The notes under the pieces: model-generated
The model's input: the letters and a program-made list of their open reading frames with translations, nothing else
Databases searched by the model: none
Told to the model about the DNA's origin: nothing
Translations under genes and position numbers: made by a program
DNA from: an uncultured Dysosmobacter sp.
GTDB lineage: Bacteria; Bacillota; Clostridia; Oscillospirales; Oscillospiraceae
Length of the DNA: 24,045 nucleotides
Reading direction: 5' to 3'
Assembly (NCBI GenBank): GCA_934504065.1
Contig: CAKSVQ010000021.1
Coordinates: 1-24,045, forward strand
Shown: piece by piece, positions 863-21,443 of the stretch
How positions within the stretch are numbered: the stretch's first letter is position 1
How the letters are laid out: every line of letters begins with the position of its first letter

Positions 863-1549
863 TCAATCCAAATCTCCCTGCTCATACAGGGGGACTGTTC
901 TCCGGTAGGACTGGGGGCGGTATGTCACCGAGGCGATCCGCCGTCCGTTCACGCCGTATCTGGGGTGTGTGCCGAACAGGTCGATGTACCGCGTGAGGTC
1001 GTCCCGCTCCGCCGCCATGGCCTCCAGCAGCTGCACGGTGGCCCGGGCATCGTCCACAGCCCGGTGGCTGTTCACCGCGTCGGTCAGGCCGTAGGCTTCA
1101 ATGGCGTTGCACAGCTTATGGGGATAGTCCCTTCGGTCACGGTAGACCGTCAGCGCGTCCAGAAAGCGGGGCTTTTTCAGCGTGCCCACCAGCCCCAGCG
1201 GTTGCAGAAGCCAGAACATGAAGTTCAGGTCAAACTGGGCGTTGTAAGCCACCAGCAGCGGCTGCTCCGCCCCGTCCAACAGGGCGCAGAACGTTTTTGC
1301 GGCTTCCTCCGGTTCCACGCCGCAGCAATGGAGCTGCTCGTCGGTGATCCCGGTCAGCTCCACGATGAAGGGCGGCAGGCGCTGGCCCTCCGGCAGGCGG
1401 ATCAGGCAGTCCATGCTGTTCACCTCGCCACCAGCTTCCAGCGCCACCGCGCCCAGCTCAATGATCCGGTCCCTACCGAACGTGATCCCGGTGGTCTCCG
1501 TGTCAAAAACCACCAGACGGTCGAATTGCTTGAAAAGGCTTTCCATCAT
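863..1549 (-). CDS. DnaQ-like DEDDh 3'-5' exonuclease
   Basis: The 228-residue protein has all the elements of a DEDDh exonuclease: FDTETTG (D16, E18) for Exo I, NAQFDLNF (D107) for Exo II and HRAVDDA (H162, D167) for Exo III. The fold is that of the proofreading subunit epsilon of DNA polymerase III and of the exonuclease domain of PolC. It is a stand-alone domain, so the role could be DNA repair, proofreading or RNA trimming; the sequence does not decide. The first of two adjacent ATGs is chosen because GGAGA lies 7 bases upstream. The start overlaps the stop of the upstream nuclease gene by ATGA, so the two are probably translationally coupled. Confidence 0.85.
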   Translation of the reverse strand: MMESLFKQFDRLVVFDTETTGITFGRDRIIELGAVALEAGGEVNSMDCLIRLPEGQRLPPFIVELTGITDEQLHCCGVEPEEAAKTFCALLDGAEQPLLVAYNAQFDLNFMFWLLQPLGLVGTLKKPRFLDALTVYRDRRDYPHKLCNAIEAYGLTDAVNSHRAVDDARATVQLLEAMAAERDDLTRYIDLFGTHPRYGVNGRRIASVTYRPQSYRRTVPLYEQGDLD

Positions 1550-2277
1550 GCCGCATTCTCCGCAAGGGCGCTCTCTCCGGTGGCATAGTCGATCTCCACA
1601 CCGGGCTGCACGTTGTAGCAGAACACGTCAAAGCACACACCCTCGCCGCCGTCCTCCACGGAATAGGCCTCCATTTCCACGCCACGGGCCACCAGATCGG
1701 TGCCCTCAAACACCGGGGTCACCCGGTAGAGCACGTGATTGCCCGTCTCCTGCACATAGTCCGCTACTTCGTTTTCAAAGGGAAGCATCCCCACCACGTT
1801 GAGGTAGCGGGTCCCGGTGATGAGGTTCCGCTCGTTGGCATTTTCCCCGGTCAGCTGATAGCCGATCAGGTGGCAGCGGTTATAAAGATATTTGCCGTCC
1901 ACCACGTCATAGCGGACGGTGTGCCATCCGGTGGGCTTGACCATGCCGATGGCGCCCCGCTCCTCCGTGGGCATCAGATCCTGCCCCACGCAGGCATACG
2001 CCGTGCCGCAGCGGCCTAGCCAGTCCAGCTCGGCATAGGTCTCCCATGAGGAGGTGTCCTGCTTTTCTTCGTCGGTAAAGGAGGGGCCGTCCAGCGTGAC
2101 ATAGGGGCTGCCGGAATATGACGGCAGGTCGTCCAGCGTGGCCGTGGTCTGCGCGGCGGGCCATTCCGGCAGGGGAAGGCCGCAGTAGTGCCAGATCCCC
2201 GCCCCCACGATCCACAGCGCCGCGATCAGGGCCGCAAGACCGCTTGCTTTTTTCTGCTTCTTTCTTCGCTTTGCCAT
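1546..2277 (-). CDS. Membrane-anchored DNA/RNA non-specific endonuclease
   Basis: The 243-residue protein begins with a very basic tail (KRRKKQKK) and one hydrophobic segment (about 13-29), so it is probably anchored in the membrane with the enzyme outside. The domain at about 90-225 resembles the Endonuclea_NS_2 group of beta-beta-alpha-metal nucleases. It contains YNRCHLIGYQL, with H136 as the expected general base, followed by ENANERNLITGTRYLN. Relatives include DNA-entry and secreted nucleases of streptococci. It likely degrades nucleic acid at the cell surface, for defence, nutrition or DNA uptake. A strong promoter lies upstream and GGGAG precedes the ATG. It is the first gene of a two-gene operon with the exonuclease. 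Confidence 0.82.
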   Translation of the reverse strand: MAKRRKKQKKASGLAALIAALWIVGAGIWHYCGLPLPEWPAAQTTATLDDLPSYSGSPYVTLDGPSFTDEEKQDTSSWETYAELDWLGRCGTAYACVGQDLMPTEERGAIGMVKPTGWHTVRYDVVDGKYLYNRCHLIGYQLTGENANERNLITGTRYLNVVGMLPFENEVADYVQETGNHVLYRVTPVFEGTDLVARGVEMEAYSVEDGGEGVCFDVFCYNVQPGVEIDYATGESALAENAA

Positions 2278-4131: not shown

Positions 4132-5445
4132 ATGACCCCGACTGTCAGCATCATTGTCCCGGTCTATAACGCGGAGGGCACGGTGGGGCGCTGCATTGAA
4201 AGCATCCTGAATCAGGAGTATGCCGATTTTGAACTGCTGCTGGTGGATGACGGCAGCAGGGATGCCTCCGGCAGCATCTGCGACCGCTATGCGGAAAAGG
4301 ATGTCCGGGTGCGGGTCATCCACAAGGAAAACGGTGGTGTTTCCGCCGCCCGGAACACCGCGCTGGATGAGGCCCGGGGCGTTTATCTGCAATTTCTGGA
4401 CAGTGATGACTGGATCACGCCGGACGCCACCAGTTCGCTGGTGCGGGCGGCGGAGAGCGGCGGATGCGACCTGGTGGTTTCCGACTTTTACCGGGTGGTG
4501 GGCGAGCGGGTCTCCCAGAAGGGTGACATTGACGACGACGGCGTGATGACCCGGGAGGAATACGCCGCCCACATGATGGAAAACCCCGCAGATTTTTATT
4601 ACGGCGTTTTGTGGAATAAGCTCTACCGCCGCGCCATCGTGGAGCGCTACCACCTGCGGATGGACCCGGAGATTAGTTGGTGCGAGGATTTCATGTTCAA
4701 TCTGGAATACATCCGCTATGCCACCATGTTCCGGGCGCTGCAAATTCCCATCTATTATTATGTGAAAACCAAAGGCTCGCTGGCAAACCAGAGCCTGACC
4801 ATCGGCAAGACCGTGAAAATGAAGCTGACGGTCTTTGAATATTACCAGCGCTTTTTCAAAACCGTGCTGGATGAGGACGAGTATGAGAAAAGCCGCCTGA
4901 AGGTCTACCGCTTCCTGCTGGACGCGGCTTCTGACGGCTCGGTGCCGCCCCTGCCCGGAACGCGCAGGCTGGGGGACGAGCGGGTGCAGGCCTCGCCGCA
5001 GGCGCTGCGGGGCGAGGGCGCGCTGTATGATGCGTTCCGGGAGCGTAAGCTGTTGGAGCGGTATCTGGAAACAGCGGCCCTGAAAAACGACCTACCCCTT
5101 GCGGAGGCCAAGCTGCTGTTGCTGCTGGAAAGCCTGCGCTTCCAGCCCACCCGCCGGGAACTGGCTGACCTCACCGGATTTCCCCGCAGCACGCTGACGC
5201 TGGCGCTGCAGCGCCTGATGGCCCGGGGCCTCGTCCGCCTGACGGATGTCCGCCTTCCCGGCGAGACGGAAAAGCGGCTGGATGTGACGTTCCCGGAGGA
5301 GGCCCACAGTGTTTTGCAGGACCTGCTCACCGCGCAGGCGGACTTTGCCGCTGCCCGCCGCTCAGCCCTCACTGCGGAAGAGGCGGCGCAGTTCCATGGA
5401 CTGAATCAGAAGATCCAGTCCCACATTCAGGATATTTTAGACTGA
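4132..5445 (+). CDS. Family-2 glycosyltransferase fused to a MarR-like winged helix
   Basis: The 437-residue protein opens with a GT-A glycosyltransferase domain (1 to about 265): TVSIIVPVYNAEGTVG, VDDGS (38-42), NGGVSAARNTALD, the DSDD metal motif (90-93) and WCEDFMF with the likely catalytic Asp186. After a linker, residues about 300-437 read as a complete MarR-type winged helix: a leading helix, TRRELADLTGFPRSTLTL (340-357) as helix-turn-helix, GLVRLTD leading into a wing, then a long helix with LTAEEAAQFHGL. GT2 enzymes transfer a sugar to a surface polymer or lipid; MarR domains bind DNA. Both halves are in one uninterrupted frame with similar codon use. The start at 4132 is chosen over an in-frame upstream ATG at 4051 because AAAAGGAG lies 7 bases before it and the fold begins there. 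Confidence 0.8.
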   Translation: MTPTVSIIVPVYNAEGTVGRCIESILNQEYADFELLLVDDGSRDASGSICDRYAEKDVRVRVIHKENGGVSAARNTALDEARGVYLQFLDSDDWITPDATSSLVRAAESGGCDLVVSDFYRVVGERVSQKGDIDDDGVMTREEYAAHMMENPADFYYGVLWNKLYRRAIVERYHLRMDPEISWCEDFMFNLEYIRYATMFRALQIPIYYYVKTKGSLANQSLTIGKTVKMKLTVFEYYQRFFKTVLDEDEYEKSRLKVYRFLLDAASDGSVPPLPGTRRLGDERVQASPQALRGEGALYDAFRERKLLERYLETAALKNDLPLAEAKLLLLLESLRFQPTRRELADLTGFPRSTLTLALQRLMARGLVRLTDVRLPGETEKRLDVTFPEEAHSVLQDLLTAQADFAAARRSALTAEEAAQFHGLNQKIQSHIQDILD

Positions 5446-5451
5446 AAAGAC

Positions 5452-5486
5452 GCTCCCCTCTGCGGTCATCTGCCGCAGAGGGGAGC
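5452..5486. terminator. Shared terminator of convergent genes
   Basis: A perfect 14-bp GC-rich stem (5452-5465 with 5473-5486) has a 7-base loop. On the minus strand it is followed by a TCTTTT tract, so it best serves the protease gene. The plus-strand tail is only weakly T-rich. Confidence 0.8.
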
Positions 5487-5500
5487 ATTGCATTTACTGT

Positions 5501-6220
5501 TTATACGGGGGTGTCGGTTGCGGATTCCCGCTTCAAAAGCCGGAACACCCATGTGTACATCAGTACCACGAATATCAAAAACACGATGGTGGACACCGTG
5601 GTGCCGACCATGGCGCAGGTATCATAAAATCCGTGGAGAAACACCGCCACCAGATACCCGGCTGTCAGATTGTGCCGGACGCCCCGGCGGTAATCATAGG
5701 CTTCGCAGAGCTTGGCCCGTCCGTAGAAAAGCCCCATGAACACCGCAAAGGACATATGTCCCGGCACGGCCAGCAGCGCCCGGGGCAGCGCCACGGAAAG
5801 CCCGTAGTGCAGCACATACTGGATGTTTTCAAAGGCGGCAAAGCCCAGCGACACGAACACCGCGTAAACGATGCCATCGAAGCGGTAGTTAAAGGCGGGG
5901 TGGTACCACGTTGTCCGCTTGAGAAGGACAAACTTCATTCCCTCCTCCACCAGCGCCACCACGAAAAAGGCCAGCACCACGGTGTAAATGGGGCTGCCGG
6001 GATCGATCAGGGCGTTGAGCACGGTCTCGCCCAGCGTTTCCAGCACGCCGGAGGCCAACGCCGCGAAAACGCCCATCAACAGCAGCCGCGCAAGCAGTCC
6101 GGGGGGCTCCTGCTCCACGGTGTCCGTTTTGTAGACATACCGCAGCAGGACCGCCGCCGGAAGCACGGCGGCAAAAATATAAATGCCAAGGATCGGCAAA
6201 AACGGCATGATAAAGAACAT
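5501..6220 (-). CDS. PrsW-family intramembrane metalloprotease
   Basis: The 239-residue protein is mostly hydrophobic, with about seven membrane helices. It carries the PrsW family motifs: VEEGMKF (E92, E93), a long FDGIVYAVFVSLGFAAFENIQY-like region (E131), VPGHMSF (H155) and HGFYD (H196, D200). The His and Glu residues are expected to bind zinc inside the membrane. In Bacillus, PrsW makes the first cut in the anti-sigma factor RsiW. Here the ATG lies 12 bases after the stop of the barstar gene, so it is most likely the third gene of the barnase-barstar operon. Its substrate is unknown. An AGGAGA ribosome site precedes the start. Candidate substrates, by inference only, are the anti-sigma proteins in this window or the membrane-linked barnase. 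Confidence 0.85.
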   Translation of the reverse strand: MFFIMPFLPILGIYIFAAVLPAAVLLRYVYKTDTVEQEPPGLLARLLLMGVFAALASGVLETLGETVLNALIDPGSPIYTVVLAFFVVALVEEGMKFVLLKRTTWYHPAFNYRFDGIVYAVFVSLGFAAFENIQYVLHYGLSVALPRALLAVPGHMSFAVFMGLFYGRAKLCEAYDYRRGVRHNLTAGYLVAVFLHGFYDTCAMVGTTVSTIVFLIFVVLMYTWVFRLLKRESATDTPV

Positions 6221-6232
6221 GTTTGATCTCTC

Positions 6233-6505
6233 CTATTCTTCGCCGGATTCCACATGGAACCGGGGATTTTCCCGGGCGGCGTCCTGCAAAACGCGGAAAA
6301 AAGCCCGGGCATAGCCGCCAAGAGCCTGTTTCAGCGCCGCCGGATGCTCCAAAACCAGCGTGGTCTCCTGGGGCAGGCTGGTCAGGCAGTCATACAGCGC
6401 GTCCAGATTCCGGCCATAGTAGTCCGGCAGGCGCAGAAGGGAAGCGAGCGTGGTGTGCAGCGTCTCCCGGTCGGGGATGGCCGCGCCGTTTAACGTCAGC
6501 TTCAT
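6233..6505 (-). CDS. Barstar-family ribonuclease inhibitor
   Basis: The 90-residue protein matches barstar over its whole length. LPDYYGRNLDALYDCLTS (26-43) contains the counterparts of the barnase-contact residues Tyr29, Asp35 and Asp39. Trp38 of the classical protein is Tyr here, and Glu76 aligns with Asp75. Barstar is a cytoplasmic protein that plugs the active site of barnase and protects the producer before export. Its ATG overlaps the stop codon of the barnase gene (ATGA, 6502-6505), so toxin and inhibitor should be made together by coupled translation. The protease gene follows after 12 bases. Confidence 0.88.
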   Translation of the reverse strand: MKLTLNGAAIPDRETLHTTLASLLRLPDYYGRNLDALYDCLTSLPQETTLVLEHPAALKQALGGYARAFFRVLQDAARENPRFHVESGEE

Positions 6506-7059
6506 GGCGTGTCCTCCCCATAGAGCAGTTCAAAGGTCTCATAGTGGTCGGCGGTGTAGTAGATCAGGCCGTCGTTGGAAAAGACGATGCGTTTGGCGCC
6601 CCGTTTTTCCGCCCCCAGCGTGTCCACGTCACACTCGGTATAGACCCGGCCTTCGGCCTCCGGCAGCGCGCCTTCGTAATTGCCGAAGCGGCTGCCGCCG
6701 ATGCACATTCCCGGGGCGTAGGGCTCCAGCGACCCGCCGGGCCAGCCCAGCGCCTCGGCTTCCTTCTTGGTCAGGAAGTTGTCCGGCAGGTGTCCATAGA
6801 GGTGTATATATAGCGCCAGATCATCCTTTGAGGTGTATGCTCCGTCCTCGGCAATGTCCGGCGCGTCCTGCGCTGGGGTATCTTCCGGTGCAGCCACATC
6901 TTCCGGCGCAGGTGTATCCTCCGGCAGCGCGGCTTCCTGCGTGTGCTCCACCTCTGGGGCGGGGGCCTGCTGGGGCGGGAGGGCCTGCGCGCAGCCTGCC
7001 AGCAGCAGGGAAAGCAGCACGGCCAGCAGCACCGCGCCCTGTCTTTTCATGCGTTTCAT
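6502..7059 (-). CDS. Lipid-anchored barnase-like ribonuclease
   Basis: The 185-residue protein starts with a lipoprotein signal (LLLAGC, Cys23). A Pro/Ala/Glu-rich spacer of about 45 residues leads to a complete barnase domain (about 73-181). Conserved barnase landmarks include GHLPDNFLTKKEAEALGW, APGMCIGG, GRVYTECDV and YTADHYETF. Catalytic counterparts are Lys98 (K27), Glu142 (E73), Arg157 (R87) and His172 (H102), all present, so the enzyme should cut RNA. Arg59 of barnase is replaced by Tyr128. Classical barnase is freely secreted; here the lipobox implies attachment to the outer face of the membrane. The start at 7059 is chosen over an upstream in-frame ATG at 7200 because AAAGGA precedes it and the signal peptide begins there. 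A strong promoter lies about 40 bases upstream. Confidence 0.88.
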   Translation of the reverse strand: MKRMKRQGAVLLAVLLSLLLAGCAQALPPQQAPAPEVEHTQEAALPEDTPAPEDVAAPEDTPAQDAPDIAEDGAYTSKDDLALYIHLYGHLPDNFLTKKEAEALGWPGGSLEPYAPGMCIGGSRFGNYEGALPEAEGRVYTECDVDTLGAEKRGAKRIVFSNDGLIYYTADHYETFELLYGEDTP

Positions 7060-7100
7060 AAGCGTTCCTTTCGTCTGTATCTCTCTGAAATGATGGACAC

Positions 7101-7129
7101 AGTATAGCGCGAAAGCGGACGCTTGACAA
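7101..7129 (-). promoter_or_regulatory. Sigma-A promoter of the barnase-barstar-protease operon
   Basis: On the minus strand TTGTCA (7124-7129) is separated by exactly 17 bases from TATACT (7101-7106). The predicted start site gives a leader of about 35 bases before the barnase ATG. It also excludes the longer ORF start at 7200, which lies upstream of the promoter. Confidence 0.7.
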
Positions 7130-7200
7130 TCCGTTTGGGCGAAAAAGCGCAGTTTCTGCTGTTGAATCAGTTCTAGGTTTGGAAACCGCATTGTGGACAT

Positions 7201-7230
7201 GGAAAAACCGCCCTTTGGGGCGGTTTTTCC
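7201..7230. terminator. Terminator downstream of the small membrane protein gene
   Basis: A perfect 12-bp inverted repeat (7201-7212 with 7219-7230) with a 6-base loop has A5 on one arm and T5 on the other. It ends transcription of the minus-strand gene at 7288-7743 before the barnase promoter. Confidence 0.8.
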
Positions 7231-7287
7231 GAGTCGGCTAAAAAGCCTCGCAGGGTTTCGCGTCCGAAGCCGCTTGATGGAGGAACT

Positions 7288-8228: not shown

Positions 8229-8750
8229 GTGATCGTCTATACGCAGATGATCGAAGATCCGGACAGCCGGACGAAGTTTGAAAAGATATATGTGCAATAC
8301 CGCGGCGTGATGTACCACGTCGCGTATCAGGTCCTGCGCAACGAGCAGGACGCCGAGGACGCCGTGCAGCAGGCCTTTTTGTCCATCCTGAAGAATCTGG
8401 ACAAGGTGCGCCGGGTGGACGGCCCGGAGACCCGGGCCTATGTGACCATCATTACCGAGCACAAGGCGGTGGACATGATCCGCCAGCGCCAACGGCTGAC
8501 CACGGTGGAATTTGAAGAGGGTGTCTACGGCATCGCGTTCCAGCCGCCGGGGGACCATGGCATCGGCGACGCCATGGCAGGTCTTCCCGCGCAGTATCGG
8601 GAGGCGCTGCTGCTGCGCCATGCGCAGGGGTACACCACGCAGGAGGTGGCGGAAATTCTGGAGCTATCGTATGAAGCGGCCCGGAAGCTGCTGTATCGGG
8701 CGAAGGAAGCGCTGAAAAAACAGTTGGGAAAGGAGGGTATTTCCATATGA
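8229..8750 (+). CDS. ECF-type RNA polymerase sigma factor
   Basis: The 173-residue protein has region 2 at about 16-90 (YRGVMYHVAYQVLRNEQDAE, then AVQQAFLSILKNL) and region 4 at about 118-165 (LPAQYREALLLRHAQGYTTQ, then EVAEILELSYEAARKLLYRA), with no other domain. It therefore directs RNA polymerase to a small set of promoters, usually envelope-stress or surface genes. The start is a GTG at 8229 with GAGGTGAT 5 bases before it; no ATG fits. Its last codons overlap the next ATG by four bases (ATGA), the normal arrangement for a sigma factor and its membrane-bound inhibitor. Its target promoters are unknown. Confidence 0.9.
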   Translation: MIVYTQMIEDPDSRTKFEKIYVQYRGVMYHVAYQVLRNEQDAEDAVQQAFLSILKNLDKVRRVDGPETRAYVTIITEHKAVDMIRQRQRLTTVEFEEGVYGIAFQPPGDHGIGDAMAGLPAQYREALLLRHAQGYTTQEVAEILELSYEAARKLLYRAKEALKKQLGKEGISI

Positions 8751-10189
8751 GTCAGGAGCCTTTTGCCAACGGTTTTCACGATTTTTCGGATGAAGCGCTG
8801 GATGCCGCCGCGAAGAGCGCGCTGGGCGCGATGATGGCATCAATGCCGGAGGAGCCGGAGGACCACGATTTTTCCCTTGCGTTTCAGGCGAAGATGGAAA
8901 AGCTCTGCGTACGGGAGCGGCGGCGCGTACGGTTGCGCCGGGTCTCGAGACGTGCGGCCATGGTGGCGCTGGTGTGCGTGGCCACGCTGGGCGTGTGGAT
9001 CGCGGCGGACACGGATGCCAAGGCGTCGTTTTCCCGCTGGTTCCGGGAAAAATATGAGAGCTACGTCTCCTATTCCTTCCGGGGCGACATTGAGGAGGAC
9101 GCGGAGCTGATGCTCCCGCAGGAGGAATTTGAGCCTGCCCGGCTGCCAAAGGGCTACCACTGGCAGGAGAGCGGCACCACCAACAACGAGACCGTCATCC
9201 TCTATCAAAATGACAGCGGGGAACAGATGGAGTTTGGCTATGCGTGGCAGGCCGCGGAATACGGACGGACAGCCGAGGACTGGGACGTGGAGCTGGCAGG
9301 CAAGACCCGCAGCAGTGTTCCGGTGGGCGAATACGCGGGCGAGCTGTTCACCGGAACAGAGGAAAATATTTTGATGTGGACGGCCCGGGACACAGCGTTT
9401 TACATCGGGGCGTCCCTGTCGGAGGAGGAACTTTTCCGCATTGCCGAAAGCGTGCACATTTCCAACCGGGACGCGCTCCCCACACCGGACGGATACCGCC
9501 TGAGCATCCTGCCGGAGGGCTATGCACTCTCTGATGAGGAGACGGTCGGCGGTGTGACCACCCGGACCTACCGGAACGCACAGGGCCGCGAGGTGACGTT
9601 TACCTACGGTGCCAAGCTTCGCGGGGAAGACCTCTTCCCCAAGTCTGCCGGAAAGGTGGAGTGTGGCACGGTGAACGGATGCAAGGCCCAGCTGCTGCGC
9701 GCCAAAGCGCCGGGGGAGACCAGCGCGGTGCTGTGGACGGATGAGAGCGGCGGGATGCTGTGCCTTTCCGGTCCGCTGGAGGAAGAAGAGCTGCTCCGCG
9801 TGGCGGAAAACGCCGTCCCGGTCTACCGTGCGCTGTATGCCCCTGCGTGGGTGCCGGAAGGCTATGCGCTGGACCCGCTGGGAACGATGGGCGGCGCCGA
9901 TTCCTGCATGACCAGTTATGTCAGCGCGGATTCCAGCGATGTGCTGGTGTTCGATTGCTTCTATATCCACTCCGGCCTTGGCATGGCCCTCTCCGCCGAG
10001 GAGGAGACGTGCACCCGGGAGGATGTGACGGTGAACGGGCTTTCCGGCGACTTCTACCAAAGCAGCCGCGAAGACGATTCCAACGCGCTGATCTGGTTCG
10101 ACGAGGACGCGGGTGTTTCTTTCTATCTGGGAGGAGAGCTGGATAAGGACACTCTGCTGAAAATCGCGGAAAGCGTGGCGCATAAGTAA
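8747..10189 (+). CDS. Membrane anti-sigma-like protein with three DUF4367-like repeats
   Basis: The 480-residue protein has a cytoplasmic part of about 68 residues (no zinc-binding HxxxCxxC motif seen), a basic stretch, one membrane helix (about 69-87) and a long outer region. The outer region contains three copies of one domain: 133-236, 255-357 and 369-478. Each opens with LPKGYHW, LPEGYAL or VPEGYAL. Each closes with an EEELFRIAESV-like helix, preceded by an ILMW or VLW strand and a short beta-rich core. This is the DUF4367 pattern common in clostridial anti-sigma proteins. Coupling to the sigma gene by ATGA overlap supports the role: the inner part would hold the sigma factor while the repeats sense an outside signal. 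The ligand is unknown. Confidence 0.78.
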   Translation: MSQEPFANGFHDFSDEALDAAAKSALGAMMASMPEEPEDHDFSLAFQAKMEKLCVRERRRVRLRRVSRRAAMVALVCVATLGVWIAADTDAKASFSRWFREKYESYVSYSFRGDIEEDAELMLPQEEFEPARLPKGYHWQESGTTNNETVILYQNDSGEQMEFGYAWQAAEYGRTAEDWDVELAGKTRSSVPVGEYAGELFTGTEENILMWTARDTAFYIGASLSEEELFRIAESVHISNRDALPTPDGYRLSILPEGYALSDEETVGGVTTRTYRNAQGREVTFTYGAKLRGEDLFPKSAGKVECGTVNGCKAQLLRAKAPGETSAVLWTDESGGMLCLSGPLEEEELLRVAENAVPVYRALYAPAWVPEGYALDPLGTMGGADSCMTSYVSADSSDVLVFDCFYIHSGLGMALSAEEETCTREDVTVNGLSGDFYQSSREDDSNALIWFDEDAGVSFYLGGELDKDTLLKIAESVAHK

Positions 10190-19437: not shown

Positions 19438-19461
19438 GGCCAGCCGACAATTTTGCTGGCC
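19438..19461 (+). other. Hairpin between pcrA and the second sigma gene
   Basis: GGCCAGC (19438-19444) and GCTGGCC (19455-19461) form a 7-bp stem with a 10-base loop that contains four Ts. There is no T tract after the stem, so it may be an attenuating or processing structure rather than a clean terminator. No clear sigma-A promoter was found for the next operon. Confidence 0.45.
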
Positions 19462-19491
19462 GCATCGTATCATAATAAGGGAGGTGAAGCC

Positions 19492-19962
19492 GTGCAGGGG
19501 GATTTTGAAGCGTTTTACCTGCGGCATTTCCGGGCCATTTACCGCGTTTGCTATGCCTTTATGAAAAATGCGCAGGATGCCGAGGACTGCACGGAGGACA
19601 CCTTCGTCAAGGCGATGACCAGCGATGTTTCTTTTGAAAACGAACGTCATGAGCGCTCATGGCTTACGACCACGGCTATGAACCTCTGCAAGGACCGCCT
19701 GAAACACTGGTGGCGGCAGAAGGTGACGCCCATTGATGAAGAAACGGAACAGGCCGCCGGACCGGACGAAAAGCGGGAGGTCGTGGAGGCCGTGATGGCG
19801 CTGCCTGTGAAGTATAAGGAAGTCGTCTGGCTGCACTATTACGAGGGCTATCAGACGGACGAGATCGCGGCCATGCTGTGTAGGCCGCCGTCCACTGTGC
19901 GCAACCAGCTGCGCGATGCCCGCGCAAAGCTGAAGCTGACCTTGAGAGGGGAGGGCCTATGA
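19492..19962 (+). CDS. ECF-type RNA polymerase sigma factor (second)
   Basis: The 156-residue protein has region 2 at about 4-75 (FEAFYLRHFRAIYRVCYAFM, then DAEDCTEDTFVKAM and SWLTTTAMNLCKDRLKHWWR) and region 4 at about 100-150 (LPVKYKEVVWLHYYEGYQTD, then EIAAMLCRPPSTVRNQLRDA). Translation starts at GTG 19492, fixed by GGGAGGTGA just upstream; the earlier in-frame ATG at 19453 has no ribosome site. The end overlaps the next ATG by four bases. Together with the next gene it forms a second sigma/membrane-inhibitor module of the same design as that at 8229-10189, though the two sigma factors are clearly different in sequence. Confidence 0.9.
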   Translation: MQGDFEAFYLRHFRAIYRVCYAFMKNAQDAEDCTEDTFVKAMTSDVSFENERHERSWLTTTAMNLCKDRLKHWWRQKVTPIDEETEQAAGPDEKREVVEAVMALPVKYKEVVWLHYYEGYQTDEIAAMLCRPPSTVRNQLRDARAKLKLTLRGEGL

Positions 19963-20618
19963 GCGAAAACGAAGTGAAAGAAGCATTTGACGCAGTGGAG
20001 CCGATCCCCGGCGCACAGGATCGGATGTACGCCAATATCCTGAAAAAGGCTGCGGCGCAGACGAGCGCGCATGCGGACGGCGCTTCCCGTGTGCGGGAGT
20101 TTCCCCAGAAGCGGCGCACAGCTCCGGTCTGGCGGCGCTGGGGAACCGTAGCGGCCTGCCTTGCGCTGGTGGTGGCGCTTGGCGCTCTCGCGCCGCTGGA
20201 TGCGCGGCGGGACGAGGGAAGCACCCCCCCGGTCATGGGCGGCTCGCCCTTTGAGGATGTGGCCGGGGCGGAGGACTTTTCCAAGCTGGGCTTCACCATT
20301 GATGCGCCGGAGGGTGCGGAGGACCGCACTTACTGCATTTTTGACGGCGAGATCGCCCGGGTGGACTTTGCGCTGGACGGCCATGAATATACCTATGAGG
20401 CTGCGCAGCTGGAGGGCAACTTCTCCCGGGCGGAGGGGGAGCCCGTGGACAGCACCGTGCTGAACGCGGCGCACGGCGCGGTGCTGGACCGCCTGCCGTC
20501 CGACGCATGGCGGGCCCACTGGACAGATGGCGGCGTCAGCTATTATCTGACGAATTTTGACGGCGCAGAGGAAGCGGACATCACTGCCGTGGCAGGCGAA
20601 TTGATCGGGACCGATTGA
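19959..20618 (+). CDS. Putative membrane anti-sigma factor
   Basis: The 219-residue protein has a cytoplasmic part of about 60 residues, one membrane helix (about 62-80) and an outer domain. The outer domain has DFSKLGFTIDAPEGAEDRTY near its start and VSYYLTNFDGAEEADITAVA near its end, and seems to be a single DUF4367-like unit. Genes for sigma factor and this protein overlap by ATGA. By position and architecture it should bind and silence the sigma factor until an envelope signal arrives. I see no zinc-binding anti-sigma motif. It is much shorter than the three-repeat protein of the first module. A strong terminator follows. Confidence 0.7.
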   Translation: MSENEVKEAFDAVEPIPGAQDRMYANILKKAAAQTSAHADGASRVREFPQKRRTAPVWRRWGTVAACLALVVALGALAPLDARRDEGSTPPVMGGSPFEDVAGAEDFSKLGFTIDAPEGAEDRTYCIFDGEIARVDFALDGHEYTYEAAQLEGNFSRAEGEPVDSTVLNAAHGAVLDRLPSDAWRAHWTDGGVSYYLTNFDGAEEADITAVAGELIGTD

Positions 20619-20786: not shown

Positions 20787-21443
20787 ATGAAACAGATCCT
20801 GACTTTGGCGCTGGCGCTTGCCATGGCGCTTTCTCTCGCGGCCTGCGGCAGCAAAGCGGAGGATAAAAAGGATCACGGGAGTGCCGACGCAGAGGTAACC
20901 ATGACCGCGCAGGAGATCATGGACACATTAAAAGAGAAGCTGGGAGACAGCTTCGACTGCGACACCGCCGCATCCGAGGACAATATCAGCGGCTATTGGG
21001 GGCTGGATATGGACAAGGTGGAAAGCTGGGCCTCCATGAGCAATTCCAATTCCAGCCTGAACCCCAGCACCGCCGTCATCGTCAAGGTGAAGGACGGCTG
21101 CGCGCAGGATGCCGCCGCGCTGCTGCAATCCGGCTATGAGCAGATGCTGGGCTATTCCCGGATGTACAACATGGACCTGCAAAAGGTCTTGCAGGCACGG
21201 CTGTTCGTAAACGGAAACTATGTGGCTCTGCTCATTCTCGGCGAACAGGGAGACTGGGAGCTGAGCGACGAAGAGCAGGCCCGGTTTGCCGCCGACGGGG
21301 CCGCCAAGGTGGACGAGGTGTGGAGCGGTATTTTCGGTTCAGCCGACAACACTATTGTGATCCCGGAAGACGACGGCAATAGCGGCTTTTTCGATATGAG
21401 CGGCGACGAACTGCCCGAGGGCGAGACCGTAGTCGGCGGCTGA
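20787..21443 (+). CDS. DUF4358-like lipoprotein
   Basis: The 218-residue protein begins with a lipoprotein signal (MKQILTLALA then LSLAAC, Cys20), so it is probably anchored to the outer face of the membrane. The mature part contains MTAQEIMDTLKEKLGD, a patch of Ser/Asn residues and VIVKVKDGCAQDAAALLQSG. The arrangement resembles the DUF4358 family, small clostridial lipoproteins often encoded beside MBOAT and DHHW genes, which is the case here. The biochemical role is unknown; an accessory part of a surface acylation machine is the reasonable guess. AAGGAG at 20772-20777 sets the start; a longer in-frame ORF from 20622 lacks this. No convincing promoter was found in the 120 bases upstream. 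Confidence 0.7.
   Translation: MKQILTLALALAMALSLAACGSKAEDKKDHGSADAEVTMTAQEIMDTLKEKLGDSFDCDTAASEDNISGYWGLDMDKVESWASMSNSNSSLNPSTAVIVKVKDGCAQDAAALLQSGYEQMLGYSRMYNMDLQKVLQARLFVNGNYVALLILGEQGDWELSDEEQARFAADGAAKVDEVWSGIFGSADNTIVIPEDDGNSGFFDMSGDELPEGETVVGG

Follow-up and report, generated by a model that had tools for sequence, protein, structure and literature searches.

A barnase-type ribonuclease, a barstar-type inhibitor and a PrsW-type intramembrane protease, encoded in series by an uncultured Dysosmobacter sp., constitute a real and conserved variant of the barnase–barstar system, in which the ribonuclease is predicted to be tethered to the membrane and functional coupling to the protease is likely; direct cleavage by PrsW is unproven. 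The three genes occupy the minus strand between positions 7129 and 5450 of contig CAKSVQ010000021.1, within the 24,045-nt stretch of DNA that was analysed as a whole (the window). Gene identities, active-site residues, the lipobox, tight spacing and gene order are the elements that the sequence supports.

Layout of the locus and its three proteins

Re-analysis and Pfam profiles agreed with the identities and coordinates that a preliminary description of this DNA had given for the three genes, and all three proteins score far above the Pfam cut-offs. The features are as follows.

7195–7235, minus strand: hairpin followed by a T run, closing the upstream unit (−27.2 kcal/mol on folding; read from the sequence, not in the terminator scan output)
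7101–7129, minus strand: promoter-like site of sigma-70 type, TTGTCA-17-TATACT (10 of 12 matches)
6502–7059, minus strand: barnase-type RNase lipoprotein, 185 residues (PF00545, E 4e-19)
6233–6505, minus strand: barstar-type inhibitor, 90 residues (PF01337, E 3.4e-23)
5501–6220, minus strand: PrsW-type intramembrane protease, 239 residues (PF13367, E 2.1e-35)
5450–5488, minus strand: terminator-like hairpin of 16 pairs (5500–5445 folds at −34.1 kcal/mol)
4132–5445, plus strand: convergent glycosyltransferase gene (PF00535, E 3e-39)

Barnase and barstar overlap by 4 bases, and 12 bases separate barstar from PrsW. The expectation that one promoter leads through the three genes to a shared terminator was borne out in the sequence: the first hairpin, just upstream of the promoter-like site, parts the unit from a gene for a 158-residue protein (7764–7288), and the last also scored on the plus strand, for the convergent glycosyltransferase gene, as a common terminator. 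The promoter match alone is weak evidence, since the scan returned three promoter-like sites in 4 kb against 1.0 in shuffled sequences. Judged by this layout, barnase, barstar and PrsW are probably co-transcribed as a single unit.

The barnase begins with a signal peptide and a lipobox (LAGC, with Cys23, as read from the sequence), as expected of a bacterial lipoprotein, and continues with an acidic, proline-rich stalk of about 50 residues that reaches to about residue 72, with the catalytic domain starting at about residue 73–78. The stalk is mostly disordered in an AlphaFold2 model (pLDDT below 50 at residues 30–44, 46–51 and 53–64), in agreement with the lipobox and flexible spacer that had been attributed to this protein beforehand. 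Export of the RNase and its anchoring in the membrane are predicted from this lipobox-bearing sequence. The protein matches barnase relatives in the PDB at 89.8 bits as well as the PF00545 profile, and its E142, R157 and H172 align with the catalytic E73, R87 and H102 of barnase. In the numbering of classical barnase (K27, E73, R59, R83, R87 and H102) and barstar (D35, D39 and E76), the enzyme keeps residues matching K27, E73, R83, R87 and H102 and has Tyr at the R59 position, and the inhibitor, besides matching PF01337, keeps the interface residues D35 and D39 and has Asp at the E76 position. The two substitutions may be linked, since R59 contacts E76 in the classical complex. The barstar would be expected to inhibit the barnase beside it.

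In the protease, E92, E93, H155 and H196 are invariant in 17 sequences, and the protein combines the PF13367 (M82) profile, the Glu pair and the His residues with several membrane helices, features that it shares with Bacillus subtilis PrsW, the site-1 protease of RsiW. Unlike that protein, it has no conserved sigma/anti-sigma neighbour (see below) and falls short of the NCBIfam PrsW equivalog cut-off (NF033739; 129.7 against 225 bits). The best fold matches of its model are APH-1 chains (probability 0.99–1.00, TM about 0.5, E 0.07–0.2), in line with the kinship of PrsW, CPBP and APH-1 set out in a published passage on these proteases (PMC3482391).

As a whole, the unit resembles Bacillus barnase–barstar (PF00545, PF01337) in its folds, its key residues and the order of enzyme gene then inhibitor gene, whereas it differs in having a lipobox and stalk instead of free secretion, in the substitutions at R59 and E76, and in PrsW as a third gene.

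Conservation of the gene order

Adjacency of barnase and PrsW is the norm where both occur in two genera. One genus, represented here by 86 genomes, has PrsW in 31, barnase in 41, both in 19 and the two adjacent in 16; the other, with 18 genomes, has PrsW in 13, barnase in 14, both in 12 and adjacent in 12. Barnase and an orthologous PrsW are thus neighbours in 28 of 31 co-occurring genomes. Barstar lies between them in 27 of the 28 (one only as a fragment), and of 27 measured modules, the window's among them, 24 place the PrsW start −4 to 39 nt beyond the stop codon of barstar. No promoter-like site was found between barnase and PrsW in 28 of 29 modules, that is, in the window and 27 of 28 related ones; a single relative (L035) has one. 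The preliminary description had named two observations that would speak against a linked operon, a gene order lost in relatives and a separate promoter for the protease gene, and both came out in favour of linkage. One-off chance adjacency, which it had left open, is rejected: the arrangement recurs in 28 other genomes, and with 28 of 31 adjacent and no separate PrsW promoter such a coincidence is unlikely.

Across the family the arrangement is less common. In a sample of 400 genomes from the larger group, whose completeness is not given, so that an absent gene may be absent sequence, barnase occurs in 140, operon-type PrsW (E < 1e-70) in 17, both in 10 and the two adjacent in 5; PrsW is therefore adjacent in 5 of 140 barnase genomes. 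In two genomes (G001 and G006) a CYTH/DUF1653 gene is inserted between barstar and PrsW.

We also compared nine other genes of the window with 65 fetched PrsW loci (417 kb in pieces that overlap and have short flanks). The glycosyltransferase has relatives in 17 of the 65 loci and is the sole gene of the nine to recur widely; the genes downstream of PrsW differ in the other genus. Counts of downstream neighbours overstate PrsW, since the gene itself was the route by which many loci were retrieved.

Thirteen genomes from the two genera, all of them drafts, have PrsW with no barnase detected; in some of them (G217 and G469) less than 300 nt of contig remains upstream of PrsW. At least 6 of the 13 (G217, G441, G460, G469, G442 and G409) have PrsW beside the same glycosyltransferase, with other genes upstream. 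In G441 and G460 a pair of genes for small membrane proteins, one with DUF2752, precedes PrsW, which ends such a run in barnase-less relatives (L242 and L244); these upstream genes are a possible other partner of PrsW. Barnase–barstar and PrsW can each exist alone. In G217 a plausible promoter, read by eye, directly precedes PrsW. 5S rRNA genes lie near the barnase–barstar–PrsW unit in three genomes (L256:5931–6042, L009:8314–8429 and L024:10303–10418), and the cut contig ends upstream of PrsW in G217 and G469 resemble a 5S end by eye, without Rfam confirmation.

These loci bear on the reading that PrsW is a bystander, in which a barnase–barstar pair was inserted ahead of a PrsW gene already present and the arrangement was then inherited with no joint function. 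The six or more genomes that keep PrsW beside the glycosyltransferase with other genes upstream are what such a history would leave behind. The PrsW tree, in which adjacency needs 11 changes, at least 3 of them forced, with gain and loss not separable, also fits it, as does the fact that one origin of the PrsW-linked modules is not rejected: a single clade has an AU p of 0.288 (0.405 without L035). In the module tree the PrsW-adjacency label needs 10 changes, of which well-supported branches force only 1, and barnase pairs may have been recruited to PrsW once or several times independently. Against the bystander reading, tight spacing persists although the upstream genes differ, two genera share the order despite unlike genes downstream, and co-occurrence extends to PrsW relatives unlinked to barnase (below). 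On balance we regard an idle PrsW as rather improbable.

Anchoring and co-occurrence beyond the operon

Related barnases are numerous and appear to be tethered as a rule. In the barnase protein search at least 7,996 of 8,000 scored candidates passed, 120 of the 7,996 being listed (the other protein search listed 120 of 4,017 matches), and a genome scan confirmed barnase in at least 582 of 594 stretches. Among the best 80 of these stretches, which come mostly from records titled Oscillospiraceae, Ruminococcaceae, Lachnospiraceae, Oscillibacter or Clostridia, barstar lies beside barnase in 76 and PrsW downstream in 6; most barnase–barstar pairs have neighbours other than PrsW. By a pattern rule, 118 of 137 distinct barnase modules carry a lipobox, as do all 25 PrsW-adjacent barnases with an assessable N-terminus. 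Stalks across the 137 modules span 29–131 residues and are rich in Glu, Ala, Pro, Thr and Asp. Lipoboxes at this frequency suggest that tethering is general among related barnases and no peculiarity of the window. Ten of the 137 scored a membrane helix or signal without a lipobox, and 9 could not be judged. One of the ten (L146) probably has a lipobox with a truncated start; the others (L040, L042, L046, L048, L060, L063, L075, L132 and L143) have an N-terminal membrane helix or signal and may keep their anchoring by different means.

A very large set of gut and rumen Clostridia barnases thus seems to be membrane-tethered, as against the secreted barnase of textbooks, and tethering alters the purpose that such an RNase may serve, which could be killing on contact, feeding at the surface or regulated shedding. 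TraA and TraB are the machinery of outer membrane exchange. The myxobacterial SitA toxins are likewise presented as lipoproteins, but are delivered by outer membrane exchange, and the titles and abstract openings of the SitA papers mention no PrsW partner (PMC5562445, PMC8546572). The Amoebophilus APD1/APD2 effectors share a lipobox ahead of the effector domain and an inferred surface anchoring; they differ in being host-directed and in their prodomains, and the passage that treats them mentions no barstar or PrsW partner (PMC3482391).

Presence of PrsW and presence of barnase also go together outside the operon. With PrsW relatives taken up to E 1e-30 in the 400 genomes, and phylogeny ignored, 56 of 86 PrsW genomes have barnase against 30 expected; PrsW of the non-operon type alone gives 46 of 69 against 24 expected under the same conditions. 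Conversely, 84 of 140 barnase genomes have no PrsW at E 1e-30. As a control we used an endonuclease gene of the window (1546–2277, minus strand; DNA/RNA non-specific, PF13930, with an N-terminal hydrophobic segment), which is found in 112 of the 400 genomes and shows no excess, 29 of the 112 having barnase against 39 expected. A second control gene (20787–21443) matched 0 of 80 genomes and was uninformative.

Shared descent was addressed with a TrpRS tree, in which 150 of 367 matching genomes were placed, with a lean towards closer relatives. Among independent pairs differing in PrsW, barnase differed in the same direction in 6.8 and in the opposite direction in 0.4 (median p 0.03, range 0.004–0.45); from the barnase side the figures were 6.7 to 0.5, and restricting PrsW to the non-operon type left 5.6 to 0.3 (median p 0.06). 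For the control endonuclease the count was 2.6 to 3.9, that is, no association with barnase, and a smaller pairs test, before extension to 150 genomes, had given 7.5 to 0.3 (median p 0.016). A likelihood test gave the control endonuclease a p of 0.002 alongside the 2e-6 for PrsW and barnase; it was too liberal and was not used. PrsW and barnase presence therefore track each other modestly beyond phylogeny, in a pairs test based on a single gene tree and a single usable control, with genomes whose completeness is not given. That result is the best sign, if a modest one, of a coupling that is functional and not merely positional.

The same control bears on the possibility that the tethered enzyme serves chiefly in nutrition, breaking down RNA from outside at the cell surface. 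Such a role agrees with classical barnase, which works outside the cell and is paired with barstar to protect the producer, and a gene for a HAD-type phosphatase follows PrsW in three genomes (G002, G003 and G386), two of which (G003 and G386) also have a membrane-protein gene there that we took for a putative transporter. Against it, the endonuclease, found together with barnase in 29 of the 400 genomes where 39 were expected, does not co-occur with barnase. We consider feeding unlikely to be the main role; it concerns the RNase and is compatible with either reading of PrsW, so that the probabilities expressed here do not sum to one.

Possible substrates of PrsW

Our preferred reading, which we hold tentatively and at somewhat short of even chances, is that the three-gene unit makes a surface-displayed guanyl-type RNase and that PrsW acts in its pathway, with the RNase itself as the most likely target. 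Barstar would block the RNase in the cytosol until export; the lipobox would then hold the exported enzyme on the outside of the membrane by its long disordered stalk; and PrsW, made alongside it, would cleave the tethered protein, or the precursor, close to the membrane, so that it is shed or cleared. Coupling between the two is supported by adjacency in the two genera, tight spacing, the lack of a promoter between the genes, the lipobox on every assessable PrsW-adjacent barnase, co-occurrence and the pairs test. The step in which barnase serves as the PrsW substrate is the weakest of the mechanism. A mature lipoprotein has no transmembrane segment to offer a PrsW-type protease, whose known substrates have a membrane helix; this weakens the case for release, and the uncleaved precursor does have such a helix. 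Release is weakened further by the rarity of adjacency across the family, by the barnase genomes without PrsW, by the 13 PrsW-only genomes and by the CYTH-type insertions. The controlled release of the toxin that the preliminary description had proposed is plausible, and as a mechanism unproven.

A precedent for release exists in predicted PrsW-dependent polymorphic toxins, where PrsW is the proposed releasing peptidase of a nuclease toxin; in those, one protein carries PrsW on the N-terminal side of the toxin, whereas here PrsW has a gene of its own, and the passage describing those fusions does not give Tox-Barnase with PrsW (PMC3482391). The literature searched on PrsW, barnase, barstar and lipoproteins, mostly titles and the starts of abstracts, yielded no description of an anchored barnase–barstar–PrsW arrangement.

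PrsW may instead be co-regulated with the surface RNase and cleave another target, such as an anti-sigma factor or a membrane protein of the same response. The characterised substrate named in a published passage on PrsW is the anti-sigma factor RsiW (PMC3482391), the PrsW genes without a detected barnase make other substrates possible, and the window itself holds two sigma/anti-sigma modules. These consist of ECF sigma genes on the plus strand (8229–10189 and 19453–20618), each overlapping a putative anti-sigma gene; the first putative anti-sigma protein has three DUF4367 stretches. Nevertheless, a tblastn search with the four sigma/anti-sigma proteins found 0 relatives in the 65 PrsW loci (the short-flanked, overlapping 417 kb described above), and the nearer anti-sigma has a relative in 1 of 32 PrsW-bearing genomes (7 of 80 genomes tested overall). 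We therefore reject the local modules as conserved partners of PrsW; of the suggestion that they are alternative substrates, what survives is that they may be cleaved in the window's species alone. A different target for PrsW strikes us as unlikely, if well short of negligible.

If PrsW does cut the RNase, the family gains a substrate outside the anti-sigma pathway, and the operon becomes a trans version of the predicted PrsW–toxin fusions. A broader extension, which we regard as speculative and doubtful, is a split PrsW–toxin system in which PrsW-type proteases would govern in trans the shedding of the anchored barnases widespread in gut and rumen Clostridia; some lineages would encode the protease within the operon and others at a separate locus.

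Variants of both toxin and inhibitor turned up among the relatives. Ten exported proteins carry two barnase domains (P0003, P0004, P0007, P0012, P0015, P0017, P0019, P0032, P0038 and P0116), and in 9 of the 10 one domain has Arg, Leu, Tyr, Asp or Asn at the catalytic His position, which looks like an inactive domain retained next to an active one. Barstar shares one open frame with unrelated downstream proteins at L013:6608–7642, L007:6625–7506, L032:6435–7469, L041:6352–7485, L124:1428–2921 and L040:6492–8402, the partners being a metallo-beta-lactamase fold, DUF1349, a HAD hydrolase, DUF169, a PLP enzyme and one protein without assignment; the HAD type of these frames occurs as a separate gene after PrsW in L009 and L024.
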